From a virus, in the IMG/VR virus record IMGVR_UViG_3300047497_000277, positions 1 through 29,780 of that record: a stretch of 29,780 nucleotides of DNA, one strand, 5' to 3'. Positions 1,813 through 29,780 of this stretch are shown here, one piece after another. Position 1 is the first letter of the stretch. The number at the start of each line of letters is the position of its first letter. A model generated the notes under the pieces. It was not told the DNA's origin, made no database searches, and saw only the letters and a list, made by a program, of their open reading frames with translations. The position numbers were made by a program, and so were the translations under genes.

Positions 1813-4800
1813 CTACCTCTTGAACACGTTGGCGACGATGCTCATGGACGTCACGCCGACGAGGGCTTGCTTCAGGGGCGTCGTCGGGCCGGCGGGCACC
1901 GTGAGAACGAACTCAAGTTGATAGACATGATAACCCGCCGAGGTTGTCGCGGTCGTATCGGTGAACACCAATGTTACCGAACCGTCCGCGGCGGTGCTGC
2001 TGCCGGAGCGCAGCACGGTCCAGCCGGTGTCGGCGCCGTCGCGCGTCACGATCATATAGGCGTCGCCGCCATAGAGACCCGCCGCCAGGAAACCCTGTAT
2101 GGTGATGATGATCTGGAGCGAGCCGCCGGCGACGAGCGTCTCGCCGACCGCGGCCAAGCCGACATATTGCGTCGTTCCGGCGGGAAAATGATTGACGCCG
2201 TCGCCGGGGGTATTGTTGTCGATCGTCCTCGCGTAAGACCCGTATGTGCCGGTGTTCGTTTCGGTGGCCGCATTGGCCGCTATGTTCGACGTCCCCACGA
2301 CATTGACGCCGAGGTCGGACGCGCTGAGAATTTCGACGCCGGCCGAATTCCAGACGAACAGGCCGAACTGACTGCCCCACTGGCCGGCGATCATCCGGGT
2401 GGCGCCGCTGCTGTCGATAACCTGGAAATACGGCCCGTATTGCAGGCCGCCGGAGGTTCCCGTCTGGCCGTCCATCACGACAGCGGACGCCCCGCCGCCG
2501 CCCGTCGCGGTGAAGTAATTGCCGGTGAAGAAGTTGCCGGTGATCTTGTCGCCGGTGATCGTCCCTGCGCTGATATTCGCCGCTGTAATCGTCAATGCGG
2601 CGATGTTGCTGCCGGTAATCGTGCCGCCTGCGATATTGGTACCGGTAATCCCACCGGCGGCGATCTGAGCCGCCGTCAGCGTGCCTGTCGCGATTTGGCC
2701 GGCGGTGATCGTTCCTGAGGCAATATTCGCCGCTGTTATTGTATTTGCGGCTATTTTGTCCGTCGTGATCGCGCCATCGGCGATCAGCGTGCCAGTGGTG
2801 ACGCGCTCGAAGCGCGGGTTGCCCATTTCCCAATAGCCGGAACCGGCGGTTGAGGGGGGCGTGGGTTCCGCGTTGCTAACAAAAAACAAGCAGAGCACAT
2901 ACGCAGCATTGGCCGGTGAAGTCGATATAAACTCAGCCGAACAGCCGCTTGTTGCGGTAACCGATACCCCGTAGGGATCGACGTAGGATGAAGGATCGAA
3001 ATAGGTATTGCTAAGGCTAATATAAGTTTGCGTGTTGTCGTAGTATCTTGTTTCAAGATAAAAATATTTATTAGCGCCAAACGAGCGGATCAGCGCCCGT
3101 TGACGATATTGGGTATTCCCATCACAGCTGATGAGGACTGATTGTATTGTGTAGCTTAAATTAGTACTTGTAGAAAACAGCGAACAGTTCCAAACGACCC
3201 CCTTGATCAGGCCCATCGCGGCTTCAGTCGCTGTGCCTGACTGATAACCGGGGGTTGTCGTTCCATTCGTGCCTATGGCCCAAACCGTCGGGTCGGCGAA
3301 GTTGGGGTCTAAGATCAGGCTCGTCGTATCGCCGATATAGAGCTTGCTGGCGGTCACGGCTCCGGCGGCGATCTGACCGGCGTTCACCGCGGCGGCGGCG
3401 ATCGAGGCGGTGGTGATCGAGTTCGCCGCCATGTTGGCGGCGGTGATCGTATTCGCGGCGATATTACTCGCTGTAATCGTGCTCGCGGCAAGTTGCGTCG
3501 TTGTAATCGTACCGGCGAGAATTTGCGCTGCCGTGATTGTATTCGCCGCAATTTTGCCCGCTGTTATGGCGTTGGCCGCGACCTTACCGGTCGTAATGGC
3601 CCCATCGGCGATTGTCGTGGCGATTGCCAGGCGAATTAAAGAGACATTCCCGAAGCACCAATAGCCCGACGTAGACGTTACAGTCCCGATATTTACAAAG
3701 ATATTACACTGAGCGTAGACGGCTCCGGCTGGGGGCGTGAAAGTCACATTGACATTCTGCGCCCCCGTTATCAAGGACGATGCAGCAGAGAAAGATCCCA
3801 GAAGGGTCGTCTGATCCGCAGCGTAGCAATTAACATACACCACAGCAGGAACCGATGGGATCGCCCCGATTGGTTCAACAGTCGCAGCAAGATTGTAGGA
3901 CTGGCTCGGCGTTACCGAAATAAACGGTGTGTTGGCGCCATAGAGACCCGTGGCGGCCCCGGCTAAAGCGGTGTTGACAACGACAATATTCGGGCTTCCG
4001 ATGTCCGGCGCGCTGCCGCCTGACCCGTAATACACAGTCGTGCCGACGCCCGGGCCAAACAAAGTCCAGTAAGACTGATCCTTAAATTGTGGGTCAATGA
4101 CGAGGTTGGTGGTGTCCCCTATTGTAAGCTTGTTTGCCGTCACCGCGCCGGCGGCCAAATTTGCCGTTTCTACCGCTCCGGCAGCCAACAGGGGTGTCGT
4201 GACAGCCCCGGGCGTTATCTGCGTCGTCGTGATTTGGCCGGTCAACTTGGCCGCGCTCAACCCCGCGATTTGGGCGTCGGTCAAGGTGCCGGTGATCTTT
4301 GTCGCCGCCAGATTGGCAATCTGGGCGTCGGTCAAGGCGCCGGTGACGTTGACCGCCGGAACGGCGACCGTCCACGCACCGGAATGATAACGGTACAACT
4401 GGCCGTCGGTTGTCAGAACGGCGGTGTCGCCCTCCGTCGCCGCGCCGGGAAGGCTCGATACGATCTGAACCGGGGTTATGCCGGAGGCGAATTTCGTGAT
4501 GTCGAGCGAGGCGGCCGGAATGTCGGCCGCGGTAATCGATGAAATCCAAGCCGACCCGTTCCAGCGGTAGAGCGTCCCGGTGCTGCTTTCGTAAGCGACG
4601 TTGCTGGTCGCCGAACTGGCCGAACCGATGCTGGTGACGACCTGCACCAGTTCGAGACCGCTGATCAGGTTGGCGGCGGTGATCGAATTGGCGGCGATCT
4701 GCGCCTCGACGATCTGGCCGGTGATGTCGGAGGATTCGACGCCCAGCGTGGTCGCTTCTCCCGGCCCCAGCGCCGTGGCGCTGAAATTGCCGCTGGTATC

Positions 4801-7593
4801 GACCGTCTTGACCCAGACGTAATACAGCGTGTTCAGCGCCAGGTTCGGGATGGTGACGCTGAGCGTGTCCTGACCGCCGACGGCGGCGGTCGCGAGATTG
4901 TTGACCGTGTTATAATAGACGACATAGAAGGCGATGTCGGATTCACTGGTGACCGGCGTCCACGACACCGTCACCTGGCGATAGCCGCCCGCGACGTTGA
5001 GGCCGGTCGGGGCCGGCGGCGGTGTCGTCTTGAACACCGTCAACACGTTCAAATCCTGCGCCCAGGCCGAGAAGAACGGCCCGGTATTGCTGGTGCTGCG
5101 CACGGCGCGGACCTGGGCATCGAACGTCGTGAGCGGCGCGATCGGCGAGATCGTCAGCGACGTCGTATTCGCGGCGACGAATTGATCCAGCCAAGGGCCG
5201 GGGCCGGTATGGGTGCGCCACTGCACCTCGTAACGGTCGAACACCGGATCGGGGCTCGCCGTCCAGGCGATTTGCATGAACGGTTGCACCGTGCCGTCGG
5301 GCTGCTCCGCGATGCCGCTGCTGATCGTCACGCCGCTGGGCGGAGCGACAAAAGCCGCGATTCCTGTCGGATCGTAAACATAGGGCGAAACATCGGCCGC
5401 GGTTTCAGCCGCTTCGCCGTAGATATTGACCGAAAGGAATTTGAGATAGAGCGTCTTGCCGACATAGGAGACGGGCGCGATCGGCAGGTCGAAAGTGAAG
5501 ACGTTGTCGTCGAGCAGGCAGAATTGTGAGCCGATCGCGTGGCCGGCGATCGGTGTCGAATAAACGCCCCGGCGCAGGCGGCCGGGCGTGCCGCCATACT
5601 TACCGAGGGCGTAAACATACGGCGCGGTCAAGTTCGCCTGTTCGAACGAAATCAACTCCGCGTCGCCGCCATCGGTGTTCTGCACGACCGCAAGGCAAGC
5701 GGGAATGAAGTTATCGCTGTTGAGCTGGCTGACGCTGGAAAGCGCGCCGAAGCTCTGTGTCAGATCCACGGACAGGGTATTGACGGTGTCGGGGTCCGAC
5801 CCTGTCGCCAAGGTCGCCGTCAGCACACCCTGCGTGGCCGCGCGATCGATGTTTCCAAGCGGCTGATAATCGACGTTGTCGAGCGAAATCAGAACCTGAC
5901 AGCCGCCCCAATTCGGGTTGGCGCCGGAGACGCCGATCACGATTTGCGGCGTGGCTTCCGAAATCGCCGACAGATAGGCCGGCCCCGGTTCGAAGATCAC
6001 CGGCGTGTTGATGGACCCCGGCGAAACCCGGTAATTCGCGATGTAACCCGTGCCTTGATTGAGATTGTATTCGGCCGTCGATCCCAGGCTGACCGGGTAT
6101 TCCTCGGCGATGACGGTGAGCGTGCCGTCGTCGTTCTCGGTGGTTTCCAGAATGCGGATGGCCTGCGACGATAGGCCGAGTCCGGAATCCGTGAGCGTAT
6201 CGAGGTCCATCGGATCGAACAGGCAGTACCGGCCGTCGAGCCCGAAGGTGTAGGTGTTGAGAATATATTCCTTTTGCAGCAGCAGCTGCACCGATGTATT
6301 CGCCGCGTTCCCATCGCAGAACAGATGCGCCTGCTTGCTGGAATCGGCGCGCCGTCCATAGGCGTCCATCAAGGCCTGATCGGTGGCCTCGGCGATAGAG
6401 GGGGCGTATTGGTTCGTGCGGTCGAGATATTCGAGTTTGATATCGTTGATCTGATCGGAGGCGCGTTGTCGGGTTAACAGCACCGGATCGTCATCGGACG
6501 AGCCGCCGGCATAGCCCGACACGAAATCGTCGTCACCGAGATTGAAACCGGCCATCGAGGGCGGCGTATAGCTGTAGCCGTTGCCGCTGACGGCGACACT
6601 GCCGCGGGGAACCATCGTCAGGATGCCGCAGGACCAGACCACCTCGGAATAGGTGTAGGTCGCGATATCGTCGATCAGCGACGATGTCTGGGTCTGGTCT
6701 GCATAGACCGGCGAAATCCACAGCCCGGATGCCAGGCAGAAGTTCTGATAGTTCGAGAGAGTGCCGGTCGAGACATAATTGATCTGGATCGCTGCGCCGG
6801 TGTCGGCCGCGTTAAAGCTGTAAACGCCGGTCGCGGCGTTGAACGCATATTGCGACGGACCCGGCGCACCGGAAACGCAGGTAAACGGAACACCCGAGCT
6901 GTCCTCGACGTCGAGGTTGTAATTGAACGCGGCGTGGTTGCCGACAGTGATCGTGTGGGGTGAGCCCGGGATCGCATAGTCTTCGCTGTTGTTGACGACG
7001 CTGCCGATCCGCGTCGCCGGGAAGCCCGCCCCATATTGCGAATTCGACAGCAGATCGACCATGACCTGGCTGGGATCGGCGTCGGCGCCGTTGGGCGCGG
7101 TGGCGTAAAGCCGCCCGTAAATCTCGAAATTGTAGCTCGGCACCGTCGCCGAGCTGGAGAGGTTCATCAGACCGAATGCGGCATAACAGATGCCGCTATA
7201 GGGCACGGCCTGATCGAGATGATTGGCGGTCAGATACGACCAGGGCGACTGGCCCAGCACGCCGGTGAAGAACGAAAAGCCGGCGGTTGAAGACGGCTGC
7301 GCGGTCTGATTGACCCAGGTCGTGCTGGTGTTGACGATCGGCCCTTCGCAAATCGCGCCCGCGACGGCGGCGGTGTAGGTGTAAGACCCGCCGCCGCCCG
7401 ATTTGCCGCTTTTGCCACCGTTCGACGACGATTTGATCGCCTTGAAATCGGTGTAACAGGTCAGGTTCATCGCCACGCGGGCAGCGCCGTAAAGGATCGG
7501 AACCGGCAGCCCGTAGCTTGACGTCTGAACCTGAATCCCAGCCAGCGCGACCGGCTGCGTCGTCTTTGCGCCACCTCCCAGCATTCCGCTCAT
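1813..7593 (-). CDS. Giant tail hub / central fiber protein
   Basis: A 1926-residue tip protein, probably the baseplate hub and central fiber of the tail. The first ~530 residues resemble the Phage-tail_3/hub part of GTA-type and lambda J-like proteins (GLPVPILYGAARVAMNL near the N-terminus; QINDIKLEYLDRTNQYAPS around residue 390). A beta-domain at residues 212-272 is inserted there and recurs in the tail tube protein. Two fibronectin-III-like domains follow, around residues 750-960 (PTGLNVAGGYRQVTVSWTPV). Residues about 968-1680 alternate short ITAxxIA-type repeats with two jelly-roll-like modules (about 1158-1327 and 1421-1598) that start GDTT.L..DP.F and end GYW.(F/M)GN. The last ~245 residues form a beta-rich tip. 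The ATG at 7593 has AGGTG five bases upstream. The long TIM-barrel region of the GTA hub is not apparent. It ends two bases before the assembly-like gene. Confidence 0.88.
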   Translation of the reverse strand: MSGMLGGGAKTTQPVALAGIQVQTSSYGLPVPILYGAARVAMNLTCYTDFKAIKSSSNGGKSGKSGGGGSYTYTAAVAGAICEGPIVNTSTTWVNQTAQPSSTAGFSFFTGVLGQSPWSYLTANHLDQAVPYSGICYAAFGLMNLSSSATVPSYNFEIYGRLYATAPNGADADPSQVMVDLLSNSQYGAGFPATRIGSVVNNSEDYAIPGSPHTITVGNHAAFNYNLDVEDSSGVPFTCVSGAPGPSQYAFNAATGVYSFNAADTGAAIQINYVSTGTLSNYQNFCLASGLWISPVYADQTQTSSLIDDIATYTYSEVVWSCGILTMVPRGSVAVSGNGYSYTPPSMAGFNLGDDDFVSGYAGGSSDDDPVLLTRQRASDQINDIKLEYLDRTNQYAPSIAEATDQALMDAYGRRADSSKQAHLFCDGNAANTSVQLLLQKEYILNTYTFGLDGRYCLFDPMDLDTLTDSGLGLSSQAIRILETTENDDGTLTVIAEEYPVSLGSTAEYNLNQGTGYIANYRVSPGSINTPVIFEPGPAYLSAISEATPQIVIGVSGANPNWGGCQVLISLDNVDYQPLGNIDRAATQGVLTATLATGSDPDTVNTLSVDLTQSFGALSSVSQLNSDNFIPACLAVVQNTDGGDAELISFEQANLTAPYVYALGKYGGTPGRLRRGVYSTPIAGHAIGSQFCLLDDNVFTFDLPIAPVSYVGKTLYLKFLSVNIYGEAAETAADVSPYVYDPTGIAAFVAPPSGVTISSGIAEQPDGTVQPFMQIAWTASPDPVFDRYEVQWRTHTGPGPWLDQFVAANTTSLTISPIAPLTTFDAQVRAVRSTSNTGPFFSAWAQDLNVLTVFKTTPPPAPTGLNVAGGYRQVTVSWTPVTSESDIAFYVVYYNTVNNLATAAVGGQDTLSVTIPNLALNTLYYVWVKTVDTSGNFSATALGPGEATTLGVESSDITGQIVEAQIAANSITAANLISGLELVQVVTSIGSASSATSNVAYESSTGTLYRWNGSAWISSITAADIPAASLDITKFASGITPVQIVSSLPGAATEGDTAVLTTDGQLYRYHSGAWTVAVPAVNVTGALTDAQIANLAATKITGTLTDAQIAGLSAAKLTGQITTTQITPGAVTTPLLAAGAVETANLAAGAVTANKLTIGDTTNLVIDPQFKDQSYWTLFGPGVGTTVYYGSGGSAPDIGSPNIVVVNTALAGAATGLYGANTPFISVTPSQSYNLAATVEPIGAIPSVPAVVYVNCYAADQTTLLGSFSAASSLITGAQNVNVTFTPPAGAVYAQCNIFVNIGTVTSTSGYWCFGNVSLIRLAIATTIADGAITTGKVAANAITAGKIAANTITAAQILAGTITTTQLAASTITASNIAANTITAANMAANSITTASIAAAAVNAGQIAAGAVTASKLYIGDTTSLILDPNFADPTVWAIGTNGTTTPGYQSGTATEAAMGLIKGVVWNCSLFSTSTNLSYTIQSVLISCDGNTQYRQRALIRSFGANKYFYLETRYYDNTQTYISLSNTYFDPSSYVDPYGVSVTATSGCSAEFISTSPANAAYVLCLFFVSNAEPTPPSTAGSGYWEMGNPRFERVTTGTLIADGAITTDKIAANTITAANIASGTITAGQIATGTLTAAQIAAGGITGTNIAGGTITGSNIAALTITAANISAGTITGDKITGNFFTGNYFTATGGGGASAVVMDGQTGTSGGLQYGPYFQVIDSSGATRMIAGQWGSQFGLFVWNSAGVEILSASDLGVNVVGTSNIAANAATETNTGTYGSYARTIDNNTPGDGVNHFPAGTTQYVGLAAVGETLVAGGSLQIIITIQGFLAAGLYGGDAYMIVTRDGADTGWTVLRSGSSTAADGSVTLVFTDTTATTSAGYHVYQLEFVLTVPAGPTTPLKQALVGVTSMSIVANVFKR
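2557..4745 (-). repeat. Tandem ITAxxIA peptide repeats around duplicated modules
   Basis: Inside the hub gene, three blocks of degenerate repeats encode units such as NTITAAQILAG, STITASNIAA and GTITAGQIATG, about ten residues each: roughly 4360-4130, 3625-3340 and 2790-2560. They flank two paralogous ~170-residue modules. At DNA level the repeats read as recurring 'gcggcgatctgnnnggcggtgatcgt' variants. The modules themselves (about 4120-3615 and 3330-2800) look more AT-rich than the surrounding gene. The periodicity suggests a repetitive beta-structured or trimeric shaft. Confidence 0.7.
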
Positions 7594-7755: not shown

Positions 7756-8154
7756 TTAGCGTTTCAACATTTGTTTTAGAAGATCGACGCTATGAGAACT
7801 TAATCTGCCGATGACCGGACCCACGCCATCGGGCCGTTTTGGGAAGTAATCCTCGGCGAACGGCAGGAGCAACGTGAGGTCCAGTTCAAATCGCGTAGCA
7901 AGAAAAAGCCCAGCAGCATTCATGTCCGTAAGATTGGCGACATAGAAGCTGCTGACATAGGGTTTGTGGAGTTTGGAAGTGCCATACGCAACTTCCAACG
8001 CACGATTCCCATCTTTTTGCCGAACGCTGCGGACCAACGCCGGTCGGTCTTTAAACCCACCCTCCCCAACGTTGGTAGGCCACCTACACCAAACCACATC
8101 GTAGGGCGAGACCGCAATCGACTGCGGGTAATAGGAAGGCGTCAGTTCCGGCAC
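7756..8154 (-). CDS. PemK/MazF-like toxin
   Basis: A 132-residue protein with the layout of PemK/MazF ribonuclease toxins. YDVVWCRWPTN near residue 18 is the first strand, KDRPALVRSV the conserved RPALV segment, and VAYGTSKLHKPYVSSF matches the YGTS variant found in phage and plasmid members. The C-terminal half (AAGLFLATRFELDLTLLLPF, then AEDYFPKR) also fits that subfamily. The likely role is an mRNA-cleaving growth inhibitor acting as a stability or phage-exclusion module. The start is a GTG at 8154, four bases after the upstream gene's TAG, implying coupled translation; the first in-frame ATG is much too late. It lies between the NlpC/P60 and hub genes, where GTA-type phages normally have nothing, and is followed by a strong terminator. 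Confidence 0.75.
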   Translation of the reverse strand: MPELTPSYYPQSIAVSPYDVVWCRWPTNVGEGGFKDRPALVRSVRQKDGNRALEVAYGTSKLHKPYVSSFYVANLTDMNAAGLFLATRFELDLTLLLPFAEDYFPKRPDGVGPVIGRLSSHSVDLLKQMLKR

Positions 8155-11125: not shown

Positions 11126-12277
11126 TCAGCCCGGTACGTTAAGAAGGCGCAGCTGGCCTGACAGCGCCTTCACCAGCGCCCCGCCATTGTTCATGAACAG
11201 GCGCTGTACGCTTTGGGCATCGACCGCTTGCACATTGACGTTGATGTGAGTGTCGCCGCCGGCGGTCCCCCCAGTCGAACCCGCGGCGCCGCCGTTTTGG
11301 AAGAAATCACGCATCGGCGCGGCAATCGCGGCGGGCAGGATCGATTCCTTGGCGTGAGCCTGGACCAGCATGTCGGTCGGCAGGTTCCAGACGCCGCCCG
11401 CAGCGGAGAGCCCGGGAATGAAACTGAGCACGGTCAGTTCGGCAGTCTCGCCCGCAGGAACCGCCGCGGGTCCGATTTCCGGCGCCATGAAGGCCGCGAC
11501 GCCGGCGCCTGTCTCAGCTGCCGATACCGTAATCGATTCGATCGCCTTACCCAACATATCGAGGATGCCGGACGAGGCGCCCGCGGCGTCGGAGGCCGAG
11601 CGGATCGCATTGCCGGCCTCGGTCGCTTCGGTCATCGTCAGTTCGGACGCGATCCAGTTGGTGGCGCGTTTGACCGCCATGCCGACGAAATCGGAAATCA
11701 CCGCCTGCCCCATCTTGGCGGTGGCCTGGCGCAAAGTTTCGTTGCCGCGAATGATGCCGTTTAGCGACGATTGGAATGCGTTGCCGATCGGCGACAGGAT
11801 CGACATCCAAGACGCCTCGGATTCCTTGACCCGCTGCTGCTCAAGCGCGCGCATCTTGGCATCGTGCTTGACCTCTTCGGCATCGGCCTTGTTCTGCAAT
11901 TGCTGGCGAACCTGCGCGCTGGCGCTCTGGGCCTGATTCTCTTTGTTCAACTCGCTCCGGATAGCGGCGTAGCGCGCCTCCTCGATACGAATTTGCTGGC
12001 TGATCGCCTCGTCGGCAGACTCTTTATAACTGTCCTTCAGGATCGCTATTTCCGCCGTTTGCTGGGCGAAGCGGTCATCGATCTCTTTCAAACTCCCTTT
12101 TTCGTCGGCAAGAGTTTTCAAGGATTGGCCGGCGCCGGCAGCGGCGGTCCCGATGCCGGCCAAGTTTTCCTGGATTTCCTGCGCCACCTGCGCGACCTGT
12201 TGCGATGAATCGGATAGTCCGCTTTGCAGCGCGTTGTTATCGACCTCGAAACCGATCTGAATCTGATTGTCGGTCAT
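11126..12277 (-). CDS. Tape measure protein (short)
   Basis: A 383-residue protein with a tape measure's composition. There is a long Gln/Ala/Glu-rich helical region (residues about 20-150, such as SQQVAQVAQEIQENLAGIG and RIEEARYAAIRSELNKE), then a hydrophobic Ala/Gly-rich region around 225-300 (SAAETGAGVAAFMAPEIGP), and a C-terminal HINVNVQAVDAQSVQRLF, the usual last segment of such proteins. At roughly 1.5 angstrom per residue for extended helical tape measures, a tail of only about 55-60 nm is implied, close to the short GTA-like tail. It lies between the tail-chaperone region and DUF2460, with a lipoprotein gene inserted just upstream. Confidence 0.85.
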   Translation of the reverse strand: MTDNQIQIGFEVDNNALQSGLSDSSQQVAQVAQEIQENLAGIGTAAAGAGQSLKTLADEKGSLKEIDDRFAQQTAEIAILKDSYKESADEAISQQIRIEEARYAAIRSELNKENQAQSASAQVRQQLQNKADAEEVKHDAKMRALEQQRVKESEASWMSILSPIGNAFQSSLNGIIRGNETLRQATAKMGQAVISDFVGMAVKRATNWIASELTMTEATEAGNAIRSASDAAGASSGILDMLGKAIESITVSAAETGAGVAAFMAPEIGPAAVPAGETAELTVLSFIPGLSAAGGVWNLPTDMLVQAHAKESILPAAIAAPMRDFFQNGGAAGSTGGTAGGDTHINVNVQAVDAQSVQRLFMNNGGALVKALSGQLRLLNVPG

Positions 12278-12285
12278 GGCTCACC

Positions 12286-12315
12286 CATAAAAAAAGCGCC
12301 CGCGAGGGGCGCTTT
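12286..12315 (-). terminator. Intrinsic terminator after the lipoprotein gene
   Basis: Read leftward, GCGCCC (12312-12307) pairs with GGGCGC (12301-12296) and is followed by an unbroken T-tract (12295-12289). It lies between the lipoprotein stop at 12336 and the tape-measure start at 12277, so it ends the lipoprotein transcript inside the tail operon. Confidence 0.85.
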
Positions 12316-12335
12316 CGAGATACAGAACAAACGCG

Positions 12336-12947
12336 TTAGTTCGTGGACGTTTTTATCGCGGTCAAAAGGCCGTCCTCGAAATAGAGAACGTTATTGTCGG
12401 GATAGCTCCATTTCTCGCGTGTGCTGTTTATTGTTTTGAGTGTTTCGATCTTATTGGGGTCACCCCAGGCCGTTCCCAAAACGCTTTTCTGCGACATCCC
12501 GACGACGACACCCGGGAGTTGCCGCCGCCTTTCGAACTCCGGCTTATCGAGATGGCGGAGAAAGGTCGGATAGGCGCCGATAGCTTTTGGGGCGATCGCC
12601 GGCGGACGGTCGATCAGCGCGGCGCGAAAACTCTGGATCGGAATCTCCACGAAACCTTGAGAACCGTTATCGAGAGCGACCTTAAACCAGGTCTGGAGCT
12701 CCGGGGACTCGTAGAACCCGAGGACCGTTATTTTCCCGGGCACGACTACGGAATTCGACGCGTAATTAGGCTGCGAATACAACAAAAGCGTACTGCCGTT
12801 TTTGGTGTAGTAGGTGTGACCGATATAGGGTGCGGCGACAGCGCTGTCTTGCGCTTGAAACTTGTCCTGGATCGTCGTGCATGCGACGAGCGCCGCGCCG
12901 CAAATTCCGAAAACAAAACCCTTCAGTATCCATTCAGCATTTCGCAA
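12336..12947 (-). CDS. Lipoprotein with SH3-like and SmpA/OmlA-like parts
   Basis: A secreted lipoprotein of about 203 residues. I choose the TTG at 12947 because GGAGG lies about five bases upstream and it yields a textbook short signal peptide: basic start, hydrophobic ILKGFVFGICGAALVA, then the lipobox cysteine (ALVAC). ATG at 12959 is the alternative; the longest frame starts at 12986. After the signal, residues about 35-110 look SH3-like (TYYTKNGSTLLLYSQPNY, WFKVALDNGSQGFVEI). The C-terminal 60 residues (GMSQKSVLGTAWGDPNKIET, later FEDGLLTAIKTS) resemble SmpA/OmlA-type outer-membrane lipoproteins. It overlaps the end of the tail-chaperone frame and has its own terminator. A lipoprotein among tail genes suggests a lysogenic-conversion gene, for example superinfection exclusion; that role is inference. 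Confidence 0.7.
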   Translation of the reverse strand: MRNAEWILKGFVFGICGAALVACTTIQDKFQAQDSAVAAPYIGHTYYTKNGSTLLLYSQPNYASNSVVVPGKITVLGFYESPELQTWFKVALDNGSQGFVEIPIQSFRAALIDRPPAIAPKAIGAYPTFLRHLDKPEFERRRQLPGVVVGMSQKSVLGTAWGDPNKIETLKTINSTREKWSYPDNNVLYFEDGLLTAIKTSTN

Positions 12948-13475
12948 ACACCCCTCCATCGCCCGTTTCGGAGAGCAGTTCTCCAAGTCCGGTTGTTCCG
13001 GTTTCGTGCCGGTTATAGCCGATCATTCGACGTAGGAGTAGATGGGATGGCGGAAATTTAAGCCAGTAGGCGGCGAGTTCCTGATATTGACCGAGCGTCA
13101 TGCCGTCGATCTCGGCCCATGTATATCCGCAGGCCGTGGCGATCAGAGCGTAGATATCGCCCCAGCCGGGGAATTCGCCGCCGGGGCTTCCCCCGGCGAT
13201 GCCGCCCGGCGCTCGAGACCCGACAGGACCGCGACCGTGGAGACGGCGGCTTGCAGCTCCACAATGCTGGGCGACAGATCGTCGAACCGGGCGCGGGTGA
13301 AATCGGGATCGGCCGAGGTCATCGCGGCGGCGATGATCTCGCCCTGCGCGTCGACCTTGGCCTCGCTGTCGATGCCGAGCTGGAGGAACAGCGGCAATAT
13401 CCGCTTCAGATCGCGGAATTTCAGCGGCGCGACCGGATAGGCCTGCCCGCCCAGGGTAACGGTTTCGCCGGCCAT
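12934..13475 (-). CDS. Tail assembly chaperone, G-T frameshift fusion
   Basis: Predicted long chaperone form of about 180 residues, made by a -1 shift from the G frame near 13190. Beyond the G stop, the -1 frame continues open as FPGWGDIYALIATACGYTW, then AEIDGMTLGQYQELAAYWLK and RRMIGYNRHETGT, ending at TGA 12934-12936. It has no usable start of its own: the first ATG lies mid-domain. The helical domain, with its W-aromatic-rich second part just downstream of G and upstream of the tape measure, matches the lambda GT arrangement and the two-ORF chaperones of GTA-like phages. The product would bind the tape measure and recruit tail tube subunits. The alternative is an ancestral fusion broken by a frameshift mutation. 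Confidence 0.65.
13143..13475 (-). CDS. Tail assembly chaperone, G-like
   Basis: A 110-residue protein starting one base after the tail-tube stop. The N-terminal half (VTLGGQAYPVAPLKFRDLKR, ILPLFLQLGIDSEAKV) is the usual start of gpG-like chaperones, which keep the tape measure soluble and assemble the tail around it. A helical second half (FDDLSPSIVELQAAVSTVAV) is followed by an Ala/Pro/Gly-rich linker (RRAASPGEAPAANSPAG). The linker is where the frame can shift to the longer form ending at 12934. Stop TGA at 13143. Confidence 0.75.
   Translation of the reverse strand: MAGETVTLGGQAYPVAPLKFRDLKRILPLFLQLGIDSEAKVDAQGEIIAAAMTSADPDFTRARFDDLSPSIVELQAAVSTVAVLSGLERRAASPGEAPAANSPAGAISTL
13187..13194 (-). 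other. Candidate -1 frameshift site
   Basis: Read leftward the bases are GGGGGAAG, with zero-frame codons CCG GGG GAA GCC. It resembles lambda's GGGAAAG slip site but is not a perfect X-XXY-YYZ heptamer: the Gly codon re-pairs exactly after a -1 slip, the Glu codon does not. Both frames remain open across it, and the overlap extends from upstream of this site to the G stop at 13143. Confidence 0.4.
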
Positions 13476-13476
13476 G

Positions 13477-14211
13477 TTATTCGCTCAACCAAACATTGCC
13501 GATATTGCCGGCGGCATCGGCCGCGGCCTGGAAATCGAATTCGGGGATCATGAAGTCCTCGTTCTTGAAAGCAAGCGAAAGCTTCGGCGCGATCACCGAG
13601 TTCAGTTGCAGGTTCAGGAGCTTGCCTTGGTACTGTTCGTTCAGCACCAGCTTGAAAGTCGGTTGCGCGCCCATCAACAGATTGGTCAGCGCCAGGCTGG
13701 TCCCGGCCGTCGTGGTGTAGCTGTAGGTGATCAGCACATTGGCGTTGGCGTCGCCCGACCCGAAGGTGTAGACGCCGCCGCTGACCGAATATTGCCCGGT
13801 CGCGGGCGCGCTGGGCACCGGCGTCAGCATCGCGCCGTTCGCGGCATAGGCGACGCCGAGATCGGCGACGAAGGTGGCGTGGTTGGCCACCGTCACCGTA
13901 TAGGCCGAACTGGCCGGTACGGTTCCGGCCTCCCCCAACTGCGTCAGCGTGTTGCCGCTGCCCAAGGTCTGGCCGAAGAAGATGTTGTTGAAATTGGCGG
14001 CTGTGATGCGCGCCGCCTTGGCCTTGCCGGTGATCTTGAGCGCGCCGCGCGCCAGCGCCGCCGGGGCCTGGAACTGCCCCATCAGTTCCTTGACGGTGAA
14101 GCTGATATCGAGCTGGACCTCCTGCAAAGTGCCGAACTGCGCTGGGGCGGGATTGGCGATATCGGTGCGCAGCGCGATAAGCGCGCCGACGCCGAAGGCA
14201 TATTGGGTCAT
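13477..14211 (-). CDS. Major tail tube protein with inserted beta-domain
   Basis: A 244-residue tail tube subunit. The outer parts (FGTLQEVQLDISFTVKELMG, then ALKITGKAKAARITAANFNN, and the C-terminal LNLQLNSVIAPKLSLAFKNE with FMIPEFDFQAAADAAGN) have the pattern of tail tube proteins of long-tailed phages. Residues about 105-166 form an extra beta-domain (YTVTVANHATF, GVYTFGSGDANANVLITYSY) whose relative occurs in the tail hub at residues 212-272. Such insertions usually decorate the outside of the tube. AGGAG lies nine bases before the ATG. It is followed directly by the tail-chaperone gene. Confidence 0.85.
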   Translation of the reverse strand: MTQYAFGVGALIALRTDIANPAPAQFGTLQEVQLDISFTVKELMGQFQAPAALARGALKITGKAKAARITAANFNNIFFGQTLGSGNTLTQLGEAGTVPASSAYTVTVANHATFVADLGVAYAANGAMLTPVPSAPATGQYSVSGGVYTFGSGDANANVLITYSYTTTAGTSLALTNLLMGAQPTFKLVLNEQYQGKLLNLQLNSVIAPKLSLAFKNEDFMIPEFDFQAAADAAGNIGNVWLSE

Positions 14212-22803: not shown

Positions 22804-23382
22804 CTAAGCCGCGCGTTTGCGGGAGGTGGGGGCGACGGCGTTGTCGAGGGTGAAGCTCATGGCGGCGGTCGTCGCATCCAGCTTGCGCGCGGTCAGGGTC
22901 GTTCCCGATTGGTCGACATTGGTCAACACCGACAGCATACCGTAGAGCAACTGCGCCAGGGTGCCCGGCTGTCCGTTGGCGGCATAGCTTTCGGTCAGGG
23001 TGTTGACCAAAATGCCGAGCGCGGCGCCCGCCGTTCCAGCCGCGGCGTGGCCGGACAGGCCGGCATCCAGCACGTCGCCGGCGACCGCGGTAATGTCGGG
23101 AGGCTGCAGCTGCAGCCCCAACGTCGCGGTGCCGTCGATATAGCGATCGCCGGCCGCGCTCAGACCCGCCCCGGCATCGACCTGCCAGATCGCCTCGCCG
23201 GCGGCGGCGGGATCGTAGGTGAATTTATACGCGCCCTGCCCCACTTCGGAGATCGCCGGCGGCGCGACGTCGGAATTGTCGGAAAGCTTCTTGAAAAACA
23301 CGAAGCCCGGCGTCAACCCCGCCACCCGCGCCCCACCGGCCGTGCTGTCGCGCACCACAAAACTAAACGGAATAGCGGTCAT
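22804..23382 (-). CDS. Tail fiber accessory beta-domain protein
   Basis: 192 residues from MTAIPFSFVVRDSTAG. I choose the ATG at 23382 because it overlaps the fiber gene's stop (ATGA) and has AAGGG upstream; the longer frame to 23460 reads back through the fiber gene. The N-terminal half is an Ig-like beta sandwich (RVAGLTPGFVFFKKLSDNSD, GQGAYKFTYDPAAAGEAIWQ), similar to upper-baseplate/BppU-like N-domains. A helical Ala-rich middle follows (HAAAGTAGAALGILVNTL). The C-terminus MSFTLDNAVAPTSRKRAA has the strand typical of phage baseplate accessory proteins. Likely a partner of the esterase fiber. Confidence 0.6.
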   Translation of the reverse strand: MTAIPFSFVVRDSTAGGARVAGLTPGFVFFKKLSDNSDVAPPAISEVGQGAYKFTYDPAAAGEAIWQVDAGAGLSAAGDRYIDGTATLGLQLQPPDITAVAGDVLDAGLSGHAAAGTAGAALGILVNTLTESYAANGQPGTLAQLLYGMLSVLTNVDQSGTTLTARKLDATTAAMSFTLDNAVAPTSRKRAA

Positions 23383-25868
23383 GATCGCGCCCTTTTGAGT
23401 TGATGGGATGGGGTCGTGGGGGTGGTGGGGGACAAAGCAACAATCACTTGTATTGCCCAAGTGGCGGCCGTTGCTTGATCGCCATGATCGTTCGGATGCA
23501 GCAAATCTGCGCTGCGCTGAAGAAATGGGCGCCGCTGGAAATAGTTGTACGGGCCTAGCGGGTTGGAATGAAAAATCGTTGTCCCGTTCGCGAGTTCCGC
23601 CATTGCCGCGTCGTAAGCGATCAGACGCCCGGAATTCTGAACGCTATACGAACCGGACGCTTCGCCCTGAAACATCGGGCCGAGCAGATGGACGGCCTTC
23701 AGCGTCGAAATATGCGCGAACAGATACGCGATGATTGACGCGTAATTTGACTGATAGGTTGATGGCGGGGTCGCTACTCCGGTTTGCGCATCATTCGCCC
23801 CGAGATTTGAGACGATCCGCGTAACGCCCGCCGCCGAGAGGGTCGCAACAGCGGCAGGCAAATTCGATCCGCTCGGAAGCCAGTCGTTCGTCGAAGTTCC
23901 CGATATAGCAAGATCAAGAGAAAAACTTAATCCGCCGCCGGTCGCCGTGGTGTTCGTCCCGCCGTACCATTCTTTCGACGGCATTCCGAAATTAAGCTGG
24001 TCGATCATCGCCGCAAACGGGCTTTCGATGGTCGAATACGATCCCGCTTCGATGGAATCTCCGATGCCGCCGACGATTTCGAGGTTTGCCGCCGCCATCG
24101 TCGTCACACTGATTTGCGTCGAATAAACCGTCGTGCTCGATACGGTGTCGGTATAAGCCTGCGTGTAGAAATACGAGGTCGCCGGTGTGCGCCCGGTATC
24201 GATATAGCTTTCGGCCGTCGCGCCGCTGATTGCTGACCCGAGCGAACCGCCGCTTGTCGAGCGATACCATTGGAAGGTAAAGCTCCCGCTGCCGCCCGTC
24301 GCTTCGGTCGAGGAAAGCTGAACCGTCTGTGCGCCGACATAGGTCGCATAGGCGATGCCCGCGCCGCTCGCCGTGTTGACCACGCACGAGGCGCTATGGT
24401 TGGCGCTGAATGCTCCGGTTCCGGTCGCCGTCAGCGTCTTCGTCGTGCCGCCCGCGCCGCTCGCCGGGGTGTAGGTGAAGGTTTGCGGCGTGCTCGCGTT
24501 GACCGACGTAAAGGTCAACGACGATGGGGTAAATGTGCCGCCGCCGCTTGCGTCCGAAAGTGTGATCGTTTCATTCGACGCCGAAGTGCCGTTCAGCGTC
24601 ACGGTGTAATTGCCGGTCGCCACGCTCGGGACCGTCGTTTGCGACGACGGCGTCAGCGTAAAATTCGTTGCCGACGTGTTGGTTACCGCGCACGATGCTG
24701 TGTGTGTCGCGCTGAATCCGCCAGATGCTGTCGCGCTCAATGTGAGCGTTTCCGTTGGATCGCTCAAAGCAGGCGTGTAGGTGAACGTCTGCGGCGATGC
24801 TGTCGTGAACGTCAAGATGGACGGGGTGAACGTCCCGCCATTGCCGCCATCCGAAAGGGCGATCGAGGTTGAAGCGGACGGAACACCGTTCGGCGTAATC
24901 GTGTAACTGCCGGTCGGAACACCGACGTTTGTACTTTGACTTGATGGCGTAAACGTGAAGTCGGTTGCCGATCCGACCGAGGTCGTGAAAGAGAACTCGT
25001 TGGACCAAACAATCGCGCCCGTGCTGTTGGTCGCGGTTTGAATGTTATAATAGGTCGTCGAAGATGCGAGCCCGGTATAATTGACTGTCAGCCCCGTTGC
25101 ACCGCTGACAAGGTTCGATGTCTGCGGGACGAAATTGACGTTGTTGGCGCGGTACATCTGATAGGTGTACGGCCCCGTCCCGCCTGTCGCGCCGGTGCTT
25201 GTGATCGTCGCGGAGTTCCCGGTTATGCTCGATGCACTTAGAGTACCACCGGCAAGCGAAGAGTTTCCGGTAACTTGCAGATTGTCGATGGCGTAGCTTG
25301 ATGCGCCGGCATTATAGAATCCGGCATAACCGGCCGCCGTGACCGAACTATCAGTTTCGTTGACCTGATAAGACCCCGGCTCGGTCGTGCCAGCCGTCCA
25401 GACCTTGAGGCTGATCGTCGTGCCAATTGCCGCCGCGCGGATGCTGATAGCGGTTCCTGCGATATAGGAATAGCCCGTGTTCTGCACGCCGCCGACCGTG
25501 GAAAGCGAACCGGAGACGCACTTGTAAAGCTGAACTTGTACTGTTCCGCCGACGAAATTAACGAGCCAAACATAATAGTTTTGCGCCGCAGAATCACTGC
25601 GGATGATTGGCTGTATACCAAGGTTGTTGACCAGCGATTTCGTAACGTAAGCGATCGACATGTCGGCGGTCGCGGGGATTGAAACACCACTACCGCCAAG
25701 CAAGAGAACCTTGCCGCCGTCAGTTTGAGACGGGTTTTGAAAATCATTTGGGGACGAGTAGGCCGCGCCATCGGCGACGACGCTCCATGTCCCTGAAATC
25801 GCCGTGAACCAAGCGGGCAGCGCGCCCGCTGTATCGGCGTCGAAGTCGTCAGCGAAGAATAAGTTCAT
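23379..25868 (-). CDS. Receptor-binding tail fiber with SGNH/GDSL esterase domain
   Basis: An 829-residue adhesin-like protein. Residues 1-200 form a jelly-roll/LamG-like domain (NLFFADDFDADTAGALPAWF, then SYQVNETDSSVTAAGYAGFY). An FnIII-like domain follows at about 205-295, two tandem Ig-like repeats at about 297-396 and 397-500 (each starting xDFTFTPSSQ/NFTLTPSSQ and containing GGTFTPSxLTFT), and another FnIII-like domain at about 500-590. The last ~230 residues are an SGNH hydrolase: block I GGIGDSIEAG with nucleophile Ser near 606, block III LGANDAQTG, and block V DLLHPNDHG with the Asp-His pair. It probably deacetylates or de-esterifies a surface polysaccharide during adsorption. It lies between terminase and portal, followed by an accessory protein through an ATGA overlap. 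Confidence 0.8.
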   Translation of the reverse strand: MNLFFADDFDADTAGALPAWFTAISGTWSVVADGAAYSSPNDFQNPSQTDGGKVLLLGGSGVSIPATADMSIAYVTKSLVNNLGIQPIIRSDSAAQNYYVWLVNFVGGTVQVQLYKCVSGSLSTVGGVQNTGYSYIAGTAISIRAAAIGTTISLKVWTAGTTEPGSYQVNETDSSVTAAGYAGFYNAGASSYAIDNLQVTGNSSLAGGTLSASSITGNSATITSTGATGGTGPYTYQMYRANNVNFVPQTSNLVSGATGLTVNYTGLASSTTYYNIQTATNSTGAIVWSNEFSFTTSVGSATDFTFTPSSQSTNVGVPTGSYTITPNGVPSASTSIALSDGGNGGTFTPSILTFTTASPQTFTYTPALSDPTETLTLSATASGGFSATHTASCAVTNTSATNFTLTPSSQTTVPSVATGNYTVTLNGTSASNETITLSDASGGGTFTPSSLTFTSVNASTPQTFTYTPASGAGGTTKTLTATGTGAFSANHSASCVVNTASGAGIAYATYVGAQTVQLSSTEATGGSGSFTFQWYRSTSGGSLGSAISGATAESYIDTGRTPATSYFYTQAYTDTVSSTTVYSTQISVTTMAAANLEIVGGIGDSIEAGSYSTIESPFAAMIDQLNFGMPSKEWYGGTNTTATGGGLSFSLDLAISGTSTNDWLPSGSNLPAAVATLSAAGVTRIVSNLGANDAQTGVATPPSTYQSNYASIIAYLFAHISTLKAVHLLGPMFQGEASGSYSVQNSGRLIAYDAAMAELANGTTIFHSNPLGPYNYFQRRPFLQRSADLLHPNDHGDQATAATWAIQVIVALSPTTPTTPSHQLKRARS

Positions 25869-26133: not shown

Positions 26134-27159
26134 TTAGCGTATCCTAAATAGACGCCGAGACAGTCTTATGCCGGGGCGATCCACAAATTTATGCGACGTC
26201 CAAGACACCCCTAGTACAGCGGCAACCGACCCAAACCCGTAAATTAGCAGCGGATGAAACGACTGCATCGCAGCATGTCTCACCAGCAGCAGAACGGGTA
26301 TCTGCACGAGATAGATCGAATAAGATACGTTGCCCAACCAATGCAGCACCCTAACCGACAGTGTCCGGGCGCAACCGCCGCGATTATCCGAAAGCGCCGC
26401 CACCAGACAAACCTCAACGGCGATTGCAGCTAAATCGCAGCGCGCCAAGACCGCTACCGCCAGCATTGCTATCAAGAGCAACACCATCCGGTCTCGTGAA
26501 ACCCAAGCAGGAAAGCCGCCACGCGCTAGTGAAATTCCGATTCCAAATTCAGCAAAACAACGCACAATAGGAAACCAGCTATTCACGAAAACTATATCCA
26601 TCGACCACGCGTGTCGCCATGACACCCAGACGATCGCGCTGCCGCAAAAACAGACCATTAATGCGGCTAAGCTGGGTTTTCTCAGCCCGATTATTGCAAA
26701 AACCGGAAAGAGAAGGCTAGCGGCCCATTCAGTACTGATCGACCAATCTGGTGGGTTCAATAAAGTCGAAGACGCCGGAAGTACATTCCATCGCTGCACG
26801 AGTGCCGCTTCGCTAACGATGAAGAACCACCACCTGAAATGAATGCCCTGAACCGCCAAGATTAGAAGGCAAGCGCCCAGCACAACCCAGTGCAGCGGAA
26901 AGAGCCTTCCGAAACGCTTTCCGATGAAATTTAAATAGGTCCGAAAACCGAAAGAACCCGAGAACTCAGGGCCATGCCGTCGCCCCAAAATGTAACCGCT
27001 GAGCACAAAGAAGAAATCAACGGCCAAATAGCCCCGGTTCACTATGGGAAGGTCATCCCAACCAGGCACCGGCGACCATTTTCCGAGGTGGAAGATCAAA
27101 ACCCACAGCGCGAATATTCCGCGCATTGCGGTTAGGGATTTGATTTCCTGCATTCGCAT
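26134..27159 (-). CDS. Acyltransferase-3 family membrane protein
   Basis: A 341-residue polytopic membrane enzyme of the acyltransferase-3 family (OafA/NodX-like), which transfers acetyl or other acyl groups to surface sugars. The N-terminal signature is LTAMRGIFALWVLIFHLGKW, with the RG...H pattern and likely catalytic His around residue 24. The loop GYLAVDFFFVLSGYILGRRH is the second hallmark. About ten hydrophobic segments follow, including a late WLGNVSYSIYLVQIPVLLLV. ATG at 27159 or 27153 (MQEIKSL); neither has a strong ribosome site. It sits between terminase and the esterase fiber and appears more AT-rich than the virion genes. Likely a lysogenic-conversion gene altering host polysaccharide; the sugar is unknown. 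Confidence 0.85.
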   Translation of the reverse strand: MRMQEIKSLTAMRGIFALWVLIFHLGKWSPVPGWDDLPIVNRGYLAVDFFFVLSGYILGRRHGPEFSGSFGFRTYLNFIGKRFGRLFPLHWVVLGACLLILAVQGIHFRWWFFIVSEAALVQRWNVLPASSTLLNPPDWSISTEWAASLLFPVFAIIGLRKPSLAALMVCFCGSAIVWVSWRHAWSMDIVFVNSWFPIVRCFAEFGIGISLARGGFPAWVSRDRMVLLLIAMLAVAVLARCDLAAIAVEVCLVAALSDNRGGCARTLSVRVLHWLGNVSYSIYLVQIPVLLLVRHAAMQSFHPLLIYGFGSVAAVLGVSWTSHKFVDRPGIRLSRRLFRIR

Positions 27160-29132: not shown

Positions 29133-29780
29133 CTAACGCCCGTTATATTTGCCCACGATGGCCTGGACCTCGGTCCATTCGGCGCGGGGGAGGGTGAAGT
29201 CTTCGGGGGGGTTGTATTGGCGCAGGCGCCAGTGGGCGTCGTCCCAACCCAGCAGGCGCTTGATGAGGACATGGGGAGTGCCGTCGGCCTCCTTGCGGAC
29301 CAGGATGACATCGGCGTTGCGGCGGGGCGGCAGAGCGGGGTGGATGAGCGCGATGTCGCCTTGCTCATAGGCGGGGCTCATCGATTCGCCGACGACATAG
29401 ACGCCGTAGCCGGACCGCACGGTCATCAGGGGGTCGGGCCGCATCATCTGCTGTATGGGGTCGGAGGAGACCAGCATGGCGCCGGCCGGCCCGCCCTGGG
29501 CCGCGCCGTAGACCGGGAAATCGCGTTCGGGCGGCTGCTGATTGGGTGTGGGCCGGCCGGGCGGGGCGGATGCGGATTCGCTGCCGGTCAGATGGGCGAC
29601 GGCGATGTCGAGGACGCGGGCCAAAGCCTCCAGCGTGGCATAGCGCGGGCTGGCGATGCGGCCATCGATGATGTCGCGCACGGCGGTGATGCCTAGGCCG
29701 GCGGCGAGCGACAGGCTGCGGGGATTATACCCCGCCTCGCGCATCAACCGATCCAGCCTTTGAGAGAGAATTTCGCTCAT
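29133..29780 (-). CDS. S24/LexA-type phage repressor
   Basis: A 215-residue CI-like repressor. The N-terminus is an HTH_3/XRE domain (residues about 5-66: RLDRLMREAGYNPRSLSLAA, LGITAVRDIIDGRIASP, LEALARVLDIAVAHLTG). A proline-rich linker (about 68-88) leads to an S24 self-cleavage domain with nucleophile Ser133 in GESMSPAYEQGD and Lys174 in HVLIKRLLG. A likely cleavage site is Ala99-Gly100, 33 residues before the serine, as in LexA-type proteins. It probably holds the lysogenic state and is inactivated during the SOS response. It starts at the last window base, so its promoter is not visible. It is transcribed in the same direction as the structural genes and ends ~230 bases before the small terminase. 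Confidence 0.88.
   Translation of the reverse strand: MSEILSQRLDRLMREAGYNPRSLSLAAGLGITAVRDIIDGRIASPRYATLEALARVLDIAVAHLTGSESASAPPGRPTPNQQPPERDFPVYGAAQGGPAGAMLVSSDPIQQMMRPDPLMTVRSGYGVYVVGESMSPAYEQGDIALIHPALPPRRNADVILVRKEADGTPHVLIKRLLGWDDAHWRLRQYNPPEDFTLPRAEWTEVQAIVGKYNGR

Follow-up and report, generated by a model that had tools for sequence, protein, structure and literature searches.

What is a lipoprotein gene doing inside a tail gene cluster, between the genes for the tail assembly chaperone and the tape measure protein (TMP)? The question is raised by a viral stretch of 29,780 nucleotides (IMG/VR record IMGVR_UViG_3300047497_000277; here, the window). The window is a temperate siphophage contig with a late region on the minus strand (large terminase, O-acetyltransferase, portal, head protease, major tail protein, chaperone, TMP, DUF2460, and hub genes) and a CI-like repressor at positions 29133 to 29780. 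The features at the locus are as follows.

13477 to 14211, minus strand: major tail protein (phrog_8234, function not annotated; named by position and conservation)
13143 to 13475, minus strand: tail assembly chaperone, first frame (weak match to phrog_7947, function not annotated; named by its position after the major tail gene)
12934 to 13200 (5' limit approximate), minus strand: chaperone second frame, -1 relative to the first (conserved in relatives)
12953 to 12957, minus strand: Shine-Dalgarno-like GGAGG
12336 to 12947, minus strand: lipoprotein gene, 203 aa, TTG start (family alignment, purifying selection)
12879 to 12947, minus strand: lipoprotein signal peptide with lipobox LVAC, Cys23 predicted to be lipidated (sequence motif)
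12289 to 12312, minus strand: intrinsic terminator between the lipoprotein and TMP genes
11126 to 12277, minus strand: short TMP, 383 aa (phrog_12798, C-terminal part only)

A gene with its own terminator before the tape measure gene

The lipoprotein open reading frame ends at a stop at 12336 and has three in-frame starts (TTG 12986, ATG 12959, and TTG 12947). TTG 12947, with GGAGG 5 nt upstream (12957 to 12953), is the best of these, ATG 12959 being an in-frame alternative; a comparable purine box precedes the start in relatives. Counted from TTG 12947, residues 20 to 23 read L-V-A-C and follow a K-containing n-region and a hydrophobic stretch. On the downstream side, a stem (GCGCCC/GGGCGC) with the loop CTCGC is followed by seven T residues (12312 to 12289; full hairpin, -18.5 kcal/mol; z, -3.07). 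The clean signal peptide with lipobox, the TTG start with GGAGG, and the dedicated terminator of the original prediction were thus all recovered. The built-in feature scan of the window did not list this hairpin; three terminator-like places were found in the window, with none expected in a crude shuffle. Comparison with two close relatives gave dN/dS values of 0.16 to 0.27, and because this indicates purifying selection, the open reading frame is, at the sequence level, a real gene.

The lipoprotein gene start overlaps the end of the chaperone second frame, which runs on for about 12 nt within the lipoprotein gene before reaching its stop; this overlap suggests late lytic co-expression. No promoter of its own was recognized for the gene with a sigma-70-type consensus, which may not be that of the host. 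Within the neighboring genes, GGGGGAAG, toward the end of the chaperone's first frame (13143 to 13264), is a candidate -1 frameshift site, and the very short TMP (383 aa) corresponds only to the C-terminal portion of longer tape measure proteins.

A divergent family that some close relatives lack

Two near-identical phages carry the lipoprotein gene (94 to 96% identity), and more distant members were found at loci L013, L014, L096, L097, L098, and L043/L044. Together, the members form seven sequence clusters, including that of the window, with 24 to 50% identity between clusters, and all lie between the chaperone and TMP genes. The L043/L044 lipoproteins were recovered by a profile built without them (E = 1.1e-6 among 10,601 segments). 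A lipobox was present in eight of nine aligned members, the exception being L013 at its annotated start; the gene in L014 has no ATG, GTG, or TTG start. L002 and L003 carry the same terminator element as the window, and the hairpins of L013 and L014 are, by eye, imperfect or without a T run. In L003, an opposite-strand gene (6956 to 7489, minus strand; 177 aa; match to phrog_30545, function not annotated) that is absent from the window lies between the lipoprotein gene and the terminator.

The lipoprotein gene is absent from L012 (across the 32-kb contig) and from L016 (slot closed), and it is therefore dispensable. The major tail proteins of these two genomes are 72 to 94% identical to those of carriers, L044 apart; that of L012 is 94% identical to that of the carrier L014. 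Neither the lipoprotein nor the TMP had a relative in INPHARED, and searches of host-genome contigs returned no relative. No match to a named exclusion or defense family was obtained from PHROGs, Pfam, NCBIfam, INPHARED, or PADLOC.

Two predicted domains

Structure prediction divided the lipoprotein into two parts.

12597 to 12827, minus strand: SH3b-like domain, residues about 41 to 117 (AlphaFold model and fold matches; no Pfam match)
12339 to 12578, minus strand: BamE/OsmE/BLIP-fold domain, residues about 124 to 203 (domain model, fold alignments, and hhalign)

The full-length AlphaFold model had a pLDDT of 72.6 and a pTM of 0.42. All Z scores given here are below 8 and support a statement about fold only, for both domains. 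In the N-terminal part (local pLDDT, about 66 to 82), most top rows were SH3b proteins, with Z scores of up to 6.8 (endolysin 4krt), and residues about 37 to 117 are predicted to form a bacterial SH3 barrel. The Pfam SH3 profile matched neither the window protein (E ≤ 1) nor the nine members. The SH3-like part of the original prediction is thus retained as a predicted fold, without Pfam or NCBIfam support.

The C-terminal domain had Z scores of 4.3 to 5.3 within the full-length model, where it spans residues 127 to 203. Modeled alone, it reached a pLDDT of 93.5 and aligned with E. coli BamE (Z, 5.9; 60 residues; 25% identity), a BLIP-like protein (Z, 5.6), and OsmE (Z, 5.6); another protein took the top row (Z, 6.4), and BamE chains filled much of the top of the list. 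Profile comparison of the lipoprotein family with E. coli BamE and OsmE by hhalign gave a probability of 71% (E = 3.6e-5), and a GMT-x-QV, G-x-P, W-x-Y pattern is common to this domain and the BamE/SmpA/OmlA, OsmE, and BLIP superfamily. We predict with high confidence that the domain adopts a helix-helix plus three- to four-strand BLIP-like fold of the BamE/OsmE/BLIP type. This prediction is based on the Z-scored structural alignments and the hhalign result: Foldseek gave no match at E ≤ 0.001 with the full-length model against PDB and BFVD or with the C-terminal domain alone against PDB. Sequence searches gave no significant match in Pfam, NCBIfam, or PDB (in PDB, weak BLIP matches only; E, 0.3 to 1.2), and in PHROGs, phrog_11546 (function not annotated) covered the C terminus (E = 9e-5). 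The BLIP-like fold is common to many periplasmic binding or inhibitory proteins. Members of the BLIP-type superfamily are described as periplasmic proteins, seemingly inhibitors that act via partner binding (PMC2954215).

The comparison with BamE-like folds that had been proposed for this protein therefore places its SmpA/OmlA-like part near BamE and OsmE in fold and profile, and this likeness did not extend to sequence families. PF04355 found no match even at E 10, in a search that matched 7 of 14 control genomes, including E. coli, and it was found in none of the nine family members. The QGN motif, which all OmlA proteins are reported to share (PMC2954215), is present in E. coli BamE and absent from all nine members; E. 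coli OsmE also lacks it. Because it has neither a PF04355 match nor the QGN motif, the window lipoprotein is, as far as its residues tell, not a BamE; an extra SH3 domain and its carriage by a phage also distinguish it.

The chaperone-tape measure slot in related phages

We surveyed the slot between the chaperone and TMP genes, using the major tail protein as the anchor. From the best 80 of 385 matches, 64 loci were scored, and 8 others were added (L002 to L006 and L096 to L098), giving 72. Of the 16 loci left out, two were duplicates (L010 and L011), and the other 14 (L015, L028, L035, L038, L049, L052, L053, L056, L058, L064, L073, L082, L084, and L089) had a contig end, an unclear TMP start, or another layout. 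A slot was called closed when <1000 nt separated the end of the major tail gene from the TMP start. On this basis, 54 of the 72 loci were closed and 18 were occupied, in agreement with the earlier statement that chaperone and tape measure are normally adjacent.

Terminators before the TMP gene were found in 10 of the 18 occupied slots and in none of the 54 closed ones (P = 8e-8), and the difference persisted after removal of near-duplicates (8/16 versus 0/51; P = 2e-6); part of it is expected because closed slots have little intergenic room. The same rule found no terminator in 8 of the 18 occupied slots. By a crude hydrophobicity rule, 10 of 18 slot open reading frames looked exported, compared with 11 of 403 other sense frames (P = 3e-10; 67 of the 72 loci, five near-duplicates having been removed), a rough enrichment in that the background includes mechanical open reading frames that may not be genes. 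The lipobox rule used for slot frames missed L013 and L014.

The occupants were varied. Unrelated lipoproteins or secreted proteins fill the slot in L066, L006 (phage KT1, by eye), L017, L019, and L004, an Acinetobacter phage in which the slot gene encodes a membrane-anchored GDSL esterase. Larger, cytoplasmic-looking genes (298 to 318 aa) occupy the slot in L012 (6037 to 7610) and L014 (5887 to 8583), together with a 226-aa gene with a weak TPR signal in L012 and with the lipoprotein gene in L014. In L082, an opposite-strand gene for a 130-aa lipoprotein (4433 to 4825, minus strand; phrog_3135; no Pfam match), BamE-like by eye, is found past the downstream end of the major tail gene, in what seems to be the same slot. 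Proline-rich lipoprotein frames with an LAGC lipobox lie downstream of the TMP gene in L017, L019, and L027, about 4.0 to 4.5 kb beyond the gene for the major tail protein. What looked like a second lipoprotein, upstream in L010, was rejected as a false positive of the lipobox rule, being inside a longer open reading frame that is also encoded in the window.

The lipoprotein gene and its terminator are best read as a moron-type insert: an extra gene between conserved late genes, present in some relatives and absent from others, accompanied by a terminator, and deviant in GC3 (0.67, versus 0.76 to 0.85 in the seven structural or packaging genes measured).

Divergence of the lipoprotein and its neighbors

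Among six genomes, the lipoprotein and the TMP were both hypervariable: mean pairwise identity was 35% for the former (27% in the SH3 part and 48% in the BamE part) and 41% over the N-terminal 115 residues of the latter. The chaperone and the major tail protein averaged 78% and 82%, respectively. In the same genomes, lipoprotein distances tracked those of the TMP (rho, 0.76; P = 0.003), showed no such relation to those of the major tail protein (rho, -0.07), and gave an intermediate value for the chaperone (rho, 0.56; P = 0.06). Divided by domain, the BamE part correlated with both the TMP (rho, 0.69) and the chaperone (rho, 0.75), and the SH3 part correlated with nothing. Because the BamE part correlates equally with the chaperone, simple linkage, through linked recombination, could explain the association between lipoprotein and TMP as well as co-evolution could.

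Superinfection exclusion as the favored function

The closest known arrangement is that of phage HK97, the record of which is annotated with a frameshifted chaperone, Gp15 ("moron product"), a putative terminator, and the TMP. HK97 gp15 therefore has the same slot and layout as the window gene, a likeness of position; gp15 is a 62-aa predicted inner-membrane protein, whereas the window gene encodes a 203-aa lipoprotein with predicted SH3b and BamE/BLIP folds. Gp15 is described as a membrane-associated exclusion protein, and exclusion by gp15 and by Ltp reportedly gives way when the TMP or the tail is changed (PMC10883804). Ltp of Streptococcus phage TP-J34 interacts with the TMP and blocks DNA injection; it is a prophage lipoprotein acting outside the cytoplasmic membrane (PMC3952083), as we propose for the window protein, although its host is Gram positive and its gene belongs to the lysogeny module. 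The TMP is also the reported target of Tab, a prophage protein that prevents tail assembly (PMC10884400). The mEpimmI coliphage lipoproteins Lpp021 and Lpp010 offer a Gram-negative parallel: as in the window, they are encoded within the structural cluster, and they exclude phages when expressed (PMC11893012). Their authors tie them to receptor use (PMC11893012).

By analogy with these systems, we infer that the lipoprotein may block infection, and we assign a probability of about 0.5 to superinfection exclusion of some kind, against related siphophages, as its main role. Exclusion, one of the functions originally suggested, is thus plausible, given the slot shared with gp15 and the exclusion exerted by the mEpimmI lipoproteins. 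The lipoprotein would be exported, lipidated at Cys23, and held in the lysogen envelope, as its signal peptide and lipobox indicate. There, the predicted SH3b-like domain would anchor it to the cell wall or contact a ligand, and the predicted BamE/BLIP-fold domain would bind a protein partner. It would then block genome entry via the TMP or another tail protein ejected into the periplasm, so that the likely site is probably the periplasm, at genome injection. By the same analogy, the TMP is the favored candidate target. Because the lipoprotein gene adjoins the TMP gene, exclusion specificity and the resident TMP would travel together. Counting against this reading are the failure to recognize a sigma-70-type promoter, the overlap of the gene start with the chaperone frame, the lack of sequence matches to known exclusion proteins, the occupied slots in which no terminator was found, and the small set of six genomes behind the correlation with the TMP.

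T5 Llp and Cor are phage envelope proteins of exclusion, with other sizes and gene positions than the window lipoprotein. Receptor blocking in their manner is possible; the location of the gene and the way it diverges speak for the injection step to at least the same degree.

A broader proposal, which we regard as doubtful, is that Gram-negative siphophages use the chaperone-TMP junction as a dedicated site at which periplasmic exclusion genes dock and are swapped, SH3b plus BLIP-fold lipoproteins being one modular class of their products. The BLIP-fold domain would recognize TMPs in the periplasm and co-diversify with the resident TMP, making a self/non-self pair in one cassette. HK97 already shows this gene arrangement, and what looks new is the family and how widely the pattern occurs. 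A literature search, from which subscription papers were mostly absent and which is weak evidence for that reason, returned no printed description of SH3b-BamE-fold phage lipoproteins. These observations carry the gp15 arrangement over to a broad range of environmental siphophages, name a new two-domain lipoprotein family, and suggest a search rule for further exclusion genes (an exported gene plus a terminator right before the TMP gene). If the TMP is the target, the system would offer a tractable Gram-negative case for tail proteins crossing the periplasm.

Alternative functions

The lipoprotein could instead be a late-lytic envelope protein of the T5 Llp kind, made only to a minor extent in lysogeny, that masks the receptor and so keeps progeny from being wasted on debris or on cells already infected. 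A lipoprotein gene that has a conserved ribosome site, overlaps the chaperone frame at its start, and shows no separate promoter by the sigma-70-type consensus would fit such expression, but in an operon transcribed only late, the terminator after the gene would cut TMP expression unless antitermination acts, and among the 72 surveyed loci such terminators occur in occupied slots only. We consider this reading unlikely.

Lysogenic conversion, in which the protein changes the host envelope for host fitness, for example, with or against BamE or OsmE, and any phage exclusion is a side effect, appears quite unlikely. It draws on the predicted BamE/OsmE fold and on the O-acetyltransferase, also envelope modifying, of the same contig; the absence of PF04355 and QGN, an SH3 domain foreign to BamE, and the strong divergence between relatives argue against it. 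The related suggestion that the protein acts on the outer-membrane assembly machinery found no support beyond a predicted fold of a widespread BLIP-like type, and this idea is weak.

A structural or assembly role, for example, as a tail-associated lipoprotein, would suit a gene that always lies in the tail cluster beside the TMP gene but is very improbable given the export signal, the absence of the gene from L012 and L016 despite their carrier-like major tail proteins, and the unrelated genes that occupy the slot elsewhere.

Other genes in the window

Adjoining the large terminase gene, 26134 to 27159 (minus strand; GC3, 0.57) encodes an O-antigen acetylase/acyltransferase (PF01757, phrog_3333, and phrog_6705), likely a serotype-converting moron in the same phage. 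Between it and the portal region, 23379 to 25868 (minus strand) encodes an 829-aa protein with a C-terminal GDSL lipase domain (PF13472) and no PHROG match. A 132-aa open reading frame between tail genes (7756 to 8154, minus strand; no Pfam match at E 0.01) recalls PemK/MazF-like proteins by eye, and the same protein is encoded in L009 at about 3.9 to 4.3 kb.
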